A model generated the notes under the pieces. The model saw only the letters and a program-made list of their open reading frames with translations, had not been told where the DNA came from and ran no database searches. From NCBI GenBank assembly GCA_944389155.1, contig CALXLI010000032.1, positions 1-40,069 of the forward strand: DNA of 40,069 nt, given 5' to 3'. Origin of the DNA: an uncultured Spirochaetaceae bacterium. GTDB lineage: Bacteria; Spirochaetota; Spirochaetia; Sphaerochaetales; Sphaerochaetaceae. Positions 38,476-40,001 of the stretch are shown here, piece after piece; positions within the stretch are counted from its first letter, which is position 1, and each line of letters starts with the position of its first letter. The position numbers were made by a program, and so were the translations under genes.

Positions 38476-38504
38476 TTGACAAAGCTTAATACTTTCTTTA
38501 TATT
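38476..38504 (+). promoter_or_regulatory. Strong promoter upstream of the structured RNA and tuf
   Basis: TTGACA (38476-38481) is perfect, TATATT (38499-38504) matches five of six, and the spacer is exactly 17 bases. The predicted start is near 38511. GGTCA (38505-38509) and TGACC (38517-38521) form an inverted repeat across the start site and could bind a regulator. The tuf ATG is about 240 bases downstream. Confidence 0.85.
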
Positions 38505-38510
38505 GGTCAA

Positions 38511-38711
38511 GGTGTCTGACCATGCCCTTATGAGGGCCGTCAGCAACAGAGCCAAACCGATTGCTTCAAGCGATAAGGTGGTTCCGGAAGATAGGTCTTT
38601 ATACTACATGACTCTATTGTCGTCGGACTAGACTCCGCCGACCTCTGGAAACCTCTTGATACCGAAGCGATCAGATTTTGTCTCGAATCATATAAAGGCA
38701 TGGGCCTTTAT
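38511..38711 (+). ncRNA. Structured RNA before tuf: 6S-like RNA or tuf leader
   Basis: About 200 bases can form four nested stems. P1: CCATGCCCTTAT (38520-38531) with ATAAAGGCATGG (38692-38703), 11 of 12 paired. P2: GATTGCTTC (38559-38567) with GAAGCGATC (38664-38672), nine pairs including one G-U. P3: GGTTCCGG (38580-38587) with CTGGAAACC (38645-38653), one bulge. P4: GTCGTCGGA (38619-38627) with TCCGCCGAC (38634-38642), eight of nine. Between P1 and P2 is a large open region (27 and 19 bases). A closing stem, a central bubble and a long arm, about 190-200 nt in all, is the known shape of 6S RNA. The 3' arm of P1 also pairs with GCCTTTAT (38704-38711) as a terminator-like hairpin, so an attenuating tuf leader is the alternative. 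Pairings were found by eye. Confidence 0.5.
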
Positions 38712-38725
38712 TAGATATCTTTGTT

Positions 38726-38747
38726 TTGCGGCAGTGCCGCAAGGAGG
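38726..38747 (+). promoter_or_regulatory. Palindrome touching the tuf Shine-Dalgarno sequence
   Basis: TTGCGGCA (38726-38733) and TGCCGCAA (38735-38742) are exact inverted copies around one base; as RNA it would fold with six pairs and a five-base loop. Its right edge overlaps the first base of AGGAGG (38742-38747). It could keep the ribosome site open or limit it. Confidence 0.5.
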
Positions 38748-38752
38748 AACTG

Positions 38753-39943
38753 ATGGCTAAGGAAAAGTTTGAGAGAACGAAGCCACATGTAAACGTAGGT
38801 ACGATTGGTCACGTCGACCACGGCAAGACCACCCTTACCGCAGCAATCACAATGCATTGTGCTAAGCTGTTCGGTGACAAGGCCCTTGCTTATGACGCAA
38901 TCGACAATGCCCCAGAAGAGAAGGCACGTGGAATCACCATCAACACAAGACATGTTGAGTATCAGTCAAAGAACAGGCACTATGCACACGTTGACTGCCC
39001 GGGACACGCTGACTACATCAAGAACATGATCACTGGTGCTGCACAGATGGATGGAGCTATCATCGTAGTAGCTGCAACAGATGGCGCTATGGCACAGACA
39101 AGAGAGCACCTTCTTCTTGCTCGTCAGGTTGGTGTACCAGCAATCATCGTATTCATCAACAAGTGCGATCAGGTTGACGATCCAGAGCTCATTGACCTCG
39201 TTGAGGAGGAGATGAGAGATCTTCTTACAGAGTATGGCTTCGATGGAGCTAACGCACCTGTAATCAGAGGATCTGCATACCTTGCTATGACACAGCCGGA
39301 CAACCCAGAGGCAACAAAGTGCATCGACGAGCTTCTTGACGCTATGGATAGCTATATCCCACTTCCGGAGAGAGCAGTTGATCAGCCGTTCCTTATGCCA
39401 ATTGAGGATATCTTCTCAATTTCTGGCCGTGGTACAGTTGTAACAGGTAGAGTAGAACGCGGTGTAATCCACGTGAACGACCCTGTTCAGATCGTAGGTA
39501 TCAAGCCGACACAGAACACAGTTGTTACTGGCGTTGAGATGTTCAACAAGATCCTTGATGAGGGTCAGGCTGGAGATAACATCGGAGCACTTCTCCGTGG
39601 TATCGACAAGAAGGAAGTTGTCCGCGGACAGGTTCTTGCAAAGCCAAATTCAATCACACCTCACCAGAAGTTCGTTGGAACTGTATACGTACTTTCCAAG
39701 GAAGAGGGTGGTAGACACTCCCCGTTCTTCGATGGATACAGACCGCAGTTCTACTTCAGAACAACTGATATCACAGGTACTGTTCACCTCCCAGAGGGCA
39801 AGGAAATGGTAATGCCTGGCGATCACACAACAATCAATGTTGAGCTGATTCACCCGGTAGCTATGGACAAGGGTCTCCGCTTCGCTATCCGCGAAGGTGG
39901 TAGAACAGTTGCATCCGGTCAGGTAACCGAGATTACAGAGTAA
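38753..39943 (+). CDS. tuf: Translation elongation factor Tu
   Basis: EF-Tu brings aminoacyl-tRNA to the ribosome as a GTP complex. The 396-residue protein has the P-loop GHVDHGKT (19-26), switch I RGITIN, the G3 motif DCPGHADY, the G4 motif NKCD, and the domain 2 and 3 segments [16 protein letters not shown] and [17 protein letters not shown] start at ATG 38753, which has AGGAGG five bases upstream. It is placed before rpsJ, separated from it by a strong hairpin, and it is probably transcribed from the promoter at 38476 through a structured leader. Confidence 0.98.
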
Positions 39944-39949
39944 TACCTA

Positions 39950-39976
39950 GTCTGCCGGGGAAAACCCCCGGCGGAC
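39950..39976 (+). terminator. Strong hairpin between tuf and rpsJ
   Basis: GTCTGCCGGGG (39950-39960) pairs with CCCCGGCGGAC (39966-39976), an 11-pair stem with one G-U and a five-base AAAAC loop. GATTGATTTTTGG follows, so the T run starts late. It is either a partial terminator that makes EF-Tu more abundant than S10 or a stabilising 3' end. Confidence 0.7.
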
Positions 39977-40001
39977 GATTGATTTTTGGAGATTTTTGAA
40001 A

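Follow-up and report, generated by a model that had tools for sequence, protein, structure and literature searches.

The window, that is, the whole stretch of 40,069 nucleotides analysed here, carries the gene for elongation factor EF-Tu, tuf, which is followed directly by rpsJ both here and wherever the loci of relatives reach that far. Ahead of tuf lies a leader of about 240 nt that runs from a strong promoter to the start codon at 38753 (Table 1). A sequence-only reading of the region had proposed this promoter; the claim was borne out, as the element matches 11 of the 12 consensus bases, recurs in relatives and stands about 40-50 nt ahead of the leader RNA in nearly all of them. The RNA start expected from it is at about 38511. 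EF-Tu is among the most abundant bacterial proteins, and to our knowledge the way in which its level is set is poorly known outside a few model species. A conserved tuf leader outside the Rfam families is a concrete, testable element for how that level is set, and it means that in a group of Spirochaetia tuf, which opens the S10 operon, is preceded by a conserved leader of its own.

Table 1. Features of the tuf leader and its surroundings, in coordinates of the window
Feature	Position	Strand	Basis
Sigma-70-type promoter TTGACA-17-TATATT	38476..38504	+	11/12 consensus bases; present in relatives
P0, 5' hairpin starting at the expected RNA start	38511..38547	+	Fold prediction and relatives
Conserved RNA core	38549..38694	+	Match of covariance model R2; window's own match E 1e-15
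GAGCCAAAC strand, nearly invariant; 5' arm of P1	38549..38557	+	Alignments A5/A6
P2, local hairpin, 38560-38565 / 38569-38574	38560..38574	+	Covariation
P3 5' arm GGUUCCGGA, partner 38644-38653	38580..38588	+	Alignments; invariant
P4, variable hairpin, U-rich 5' side conserved	38590..38618	+	Fold prediction, alignments
P5 hairpin, 38619-38627 / 38634-38642	38619..38642	+	Covariation
Nearly invariant CCUCUGGAAACC, containing the P3 3' arm	38642..38653	+	Alignments
P1 3' arm UUUUGUCUC (family consensus GUUUGUCUC)	38676..38684	+	Modest tree-based support
P6 hairpin AUAAAGGC-AUGG-GCCUUUAU	38692..38711	+	Conserved; no U-run behind
P7 hairpin UUGCGGC...GCCGCAA, adjoining the Shine-Dalgarno sequence	38726..38742	+	65/74 leaders
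Shine-Dalgarno sequence AAGGAGG of tuf	38741..38747	+	Sequence; invariant in alignment A1
tuf (EF-Tu)	38753..39943	+	tblastn matches in relatives
Terminator-like hairpin with U-rich tail, tuf-rpsJ gap	39950..39987	+	Same arrangement in relatives

The leader is predicted to fold far more stably than expected from its composition: the stretch 38511-38725 reaches -70.9 kcal/mol, whereas shuffles average -54.2 (z -3.9), and none of 200 shuffles was as stable. Its parts differ in how they are conserved. The P0 hairpin is kept while its sequence varies (mean z -2.75 in 53 relatives, 91% of them below -1), the P3 consensus, GGUUCCRGA with UCUGGAA(A)CC, is almost invariant, and the arms of P6 (38692-38699/38704-38711) are paired in 168 of 176 cells among 22 tuf leaders of the genus.

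An important aspect of this leader is its distribution. A DNA search found it in most genomes of the window's genus, always upstream of tuf. A first covariance model, built from sequences of the genus, matched 93 of 395 Spirochaetia genomes, and a second, built from alignment A5, matched 113 of the 395, with essentially a single copy per genome, the only exception among the 113 being a weak antisense echo in G316. A5 had been meant to hold the window's own family only; its members are genomes of that family together with named Sphaerochaetales-like records taken in without a record-by-record check of their family. In a phylum-wide draw of 296 genomes matches fell only inside the class Spirochaetia, and the sampled genomes of two families gave no match. 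Among 60 distant loci inspected, 59 have tuf directly downstream, at a gap of about 15-180 nt; this was the case for 39 of the 40 loci of the first round and for all 20 of the second, 19 of which belong to seven families distinct from that of the window. One locus, L215, has no tuf nearby and was set aside as a false positive, and outliers of a genome pattern scan (Cephaloticoccus, Akkermansiaceae and Nonomuraea) were taken as chance, about 3 being expected by our estimate. Judged from these alignments and matches, the element is kept upstream of tuf in at least eight spirochaete families, at a fixed position on the same strand before one gene, across genera.

What kind of RNA is this? The sequence-only reading had left two identities side by side, 6S RNA or a new leader controlling EF-Tu, and had suggested that Rfam models could tell them apart. 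No family matched: with the 4227 models of Rfam 15 there was no gathering-score match in the whole window, and the window together with six relatives drawn from several families returned only sub-threshold chance matches. Neither did we find a description of the element in the literature. The leader does resemble 6S RNA (RF00013) in being about 200 nt long (6S has a size near 180-200 nt), in the long-rod look of its predicted fold and in having its own promoter. Unlike 6S RNA, it has no model match and no conserved closing stem, and it runs into the tuf ribosome-binding site. No RF00013 match was obtained in the window or in its own assembly, even at E 10. Moreover, five genomes (G040, G214, G347, G136 and G226) have 6S RNA elsewhere and this leader at tuf, for instance on contigs C38 and C29, respectively, in G040 and at 842001 and 3186825 in G214; because sister genomes thus hold the two RNAs at separate loci, a 6S identity is excluded, and we regard it as hardly conceivable that the leader is 6S RNA placed upstream of tuf. 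The other half of the proposal, a new leader, is the one that stood, given the missing Rfam family, the synteny with tuf and the covariation described below. On balance we lean, with some reserve, towards seeing the element as the 5' leader of tuf mRNA and as a new cis-acting structured RNA family, present in much of Spirochaetia, that would regulate EF-Tu synthesis. Its position and its conservation suggest that it is probably a control element for EF-Tu.

Compensatory change in the alignments supports P2 and P5, and more modestly P1. Double changes occur in 12 of 29 pairs and fill 75 cells, where shuffles give 23, and 90% of cells are paired in register as opposed to 34-50% when the arms are slid. 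P2 shows double changes in five of its six pairs and P5 in five of seven. The tree-based null consisted of 300 simulations with independent evolution of each column along the tree; none of them reached the covariation seen in P2 or that seen in P5. For P1, whose replacements include GGG/CCC and GGA/UCC, only 4 of 300 simulations reached the observed level of double changes, while its share of paired cells does not stand out from the null (reached by 75 of 300), in an alignment that had been fitted to P1. P3 and the alternative hairpin described below are nearly invariant, too much so for covariation to speak for or against them. As for the covariation that the sequence-only reading had proposed to test, the local P2 hairpin and P5 exceed the tree-based null, whereas a strict R-scape-like single-pair test on 37 sequences found no significant pair among 12,720, its best pair (E 0.11) being one that extends P5.

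The four nested stems of the sequence-only reading, which we scored on the 22 tuf leaders of the genus, fared unevenly. Its innermost stem, 38619-27/38634-42, is our P5 and was upheld: 167 of 196 cells are paired, including an internal U-C, with compensatory changes. The next stem outwards, our P3, holds as a helix, with its register shifted to 38580-38588/38644-38653. Its second stem is 97.7% paired over six inner base pairs within the genus, but shows no double change and does not extend beyond the genus; it competes with the local hairpin 38560-65/38569-74, which is the widely conserved helix. A genus-wide long-range helix, GAUUGC with GCGAUC, was rejected as the main helix, as it is not kept in other families, unlike the local P2. 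The outermost stem did not survive. Proposed as a closing stem, which in 6S RNA would surround a central bubble, it is paired in only 175 of 256 cells, and its 5' arm is variable and falls within another hairpin at the 5' end. The same reading had supposed that this stem and a terminator-like hairpin exclude each other; that idea fails because the stem is unsupported and the hairpin at 38692-38711, with no U-run behind it, is not flagged as terminator-like.

A different competition is possible. The GAGCCAAAC strand has two possible partners, namely 38676-38684 in P1 or, alternatively, 38577-38584 in an extended hairpin. In the alternative, GAGCC and ACC pair with GGUUC and GGU of the P3 5' arm, which lengthens P2 into a single hairpin. 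About 98% of cells preserve this pairing across eight families (92-100% per pair in 96 sequences), in columns that hardly vary. One family has a G-C to A-U change, and the double changes of the pairing were reached by 21 of 300 tree-based simulations. Energy estimates place the two folds within a median of 0.4 kcal/mol of each other, and the two cannot coexist fully. From this we infer that the RNA may switch between them. In one state GAGCCAAAC would pair with GUUUGUCUC as P1, and P3 could then form fully; in the other GAGCCAAAC would pair with GGUGGUUC, in the P3 5' arm, and P2 would be lengthened into one long hairpin. A bound factor would select one of the two folds, and the choice would affect either early transcription or how ribosomes load at the P7/Shine-Dalgarno region. 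A bistable switch of this kind, class-wide, in which GAGCCAAAC alternates between two partners so that EF-Tu synthesis follows a cue, be it EF-Tu itself, a ribosomal protein or a small molecule, is a tentative reading that we find possible rather than probable. If true, it would be a previously unrecognised class of regulatory RNA dedicated to an elongation factor.

Two competing pairings, together with junctions and a compact, highly conserved core, are also what one would look for in a riboswitch that controls tuf through a small molecule. The element is, however, found before a single gene only, and no metabolic gene carries it in any of the 113 genomes, so we give this explanation little weight.

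How would a change of fold be read out? Predicted accessibility of the Shine-Dalgarno sequence hardly differs between the two folds (0.14 and 0.17 with either enforced). An apparent difference, seen when bases upstream of the promoter-derived start were included, vanished once folding began at the expected RNA start. CCUCU within CCUCUGGAAACC is complementary to the Shine-Dalgarno sequence, and RNAalifold suggested that it might sequester it; folding pairs the two rarely (median 0.005), and we keep this only as a possibility. The complementarity is lost in four distant members, which have CCGCU (L193, L221) or CCACU (L312, L313). As for termination, P6 was rejected as an intrinsic terminator, since it is not flagged as terminator-like and no U-run follows it in the window or in relatives, and nowhere in the leader is a G+C-rich hairpin directly followed by a U-run. 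The folding results thus give no support to translational sequestration, and the missing U-run behind P6 gives none to intrinsic termination.

The same folding results, which give no clear on/off difference, fit another explanation: a static structured 5' UTR, without switching or ligand, that would shield the abundant tuf mRNA from decay and leave its ribosome-binding site open. It would also account for the P0 hairpin lying where the RNA is expected to begin and for P7, which in 65 of 74 leaders (4.4 expected) adjoins the Shine-Dalgarno sequence. The near-invariance of P3 and GAGCCAAAC across families, however, goes beyond what stabilisation by a hairpin would require and points to recognition, and we hold a purely static UTR to be rather unlikely. 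It is the main rival to control by a ligand that is itself a product of the operon.

Such an operon product (L4, another ribosomal protein or EF-Tu itself) is the likeliest candidate for the factor, because tuf heads the S10 operon, and since rpsJ follows tuf, any control by the leader may extend to the S10 operon. There is a precedent in Escherichia coli, where L4 binds a long, structured leader and so regulates the S10 operon (PMC10931766). By analogy, L4, whose gene rplD lies beyond the window and is presumed to belong to the same operon, might bind the spirochaete leader and reduce expression of both tuf and the S10 operon. That precedent and the place of tuf as the first gene before rpsJ speak for this version. 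On the other hand, we saw no convincing match to domain I of 23S rRNA in a comparison by eye with one relative's 23S rRNA, which is not a formal test, and the best rRNA resemblance lies elsewhere, at CAAACCGACACAGGUGG, and is weaker in family f25. Autogenous control by L4 in particular seems to us rather unlikely. The two leaders are alike in being long, structured 5' leaders before a ribosomal-protein operon with rpsJ, for which control at two levels is conceivable; they differ in that tuf comes first here and no intrinsic terminator is recognisable, and the likeness drawn here is one of general layout. Another relevant comparison is the rpsL leader of the str operon (Naville and Gautheret 2010, PMC2965389). 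It too is the leader of an operon that can include tuf, and alternative structures have been proposed for it. It stands before rpsL, however, and works through a premature terminator, whereas the present element directly precedes tuf and has no terminator with a U-run.

Several smaller observations accompany these results. In a relative's 23S rRNA (L292, about 2058-2075), the conserved segment CAAACCGACACAGGUGG resembles the leader motif CCAAACC...AAGGUGG, which is the best conserved portion of the leader. For CAAACC.A...AGGUGG, 10 of 3000 shuffled 23S sequences matched as well, several motifs having been tried first; rRNA mimicry by the leader, from which family f25 differs, is only a lead at the level of sequence likeness. 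Weak model matches on the antisense strand of the same element were seen at seven loci (L185, L229, L198, L220, L196, L192 and L243); the core appears partly palindromic, and we treat these matches as an echo. Diverged leaders in family f11 (L305, L307-L310) and family f6 (L311) retain GCCAAACC-hairpin-AGGUGGU and seem to be without CCUCUGG and P5; they are possibly a minimal element. Downstream of tuf, the strong hairpin at 39950-39987 lies close to the rpsJ ribosome-binding site, and in the tuf-rpsJ gap of relatives the GUCUUGCC...GGCAAGAC hairpin is kept, followed by UUUUUUGGAGGA. It could be a partial terminator by which expression of the S10 operon is lowered below that of tuf.
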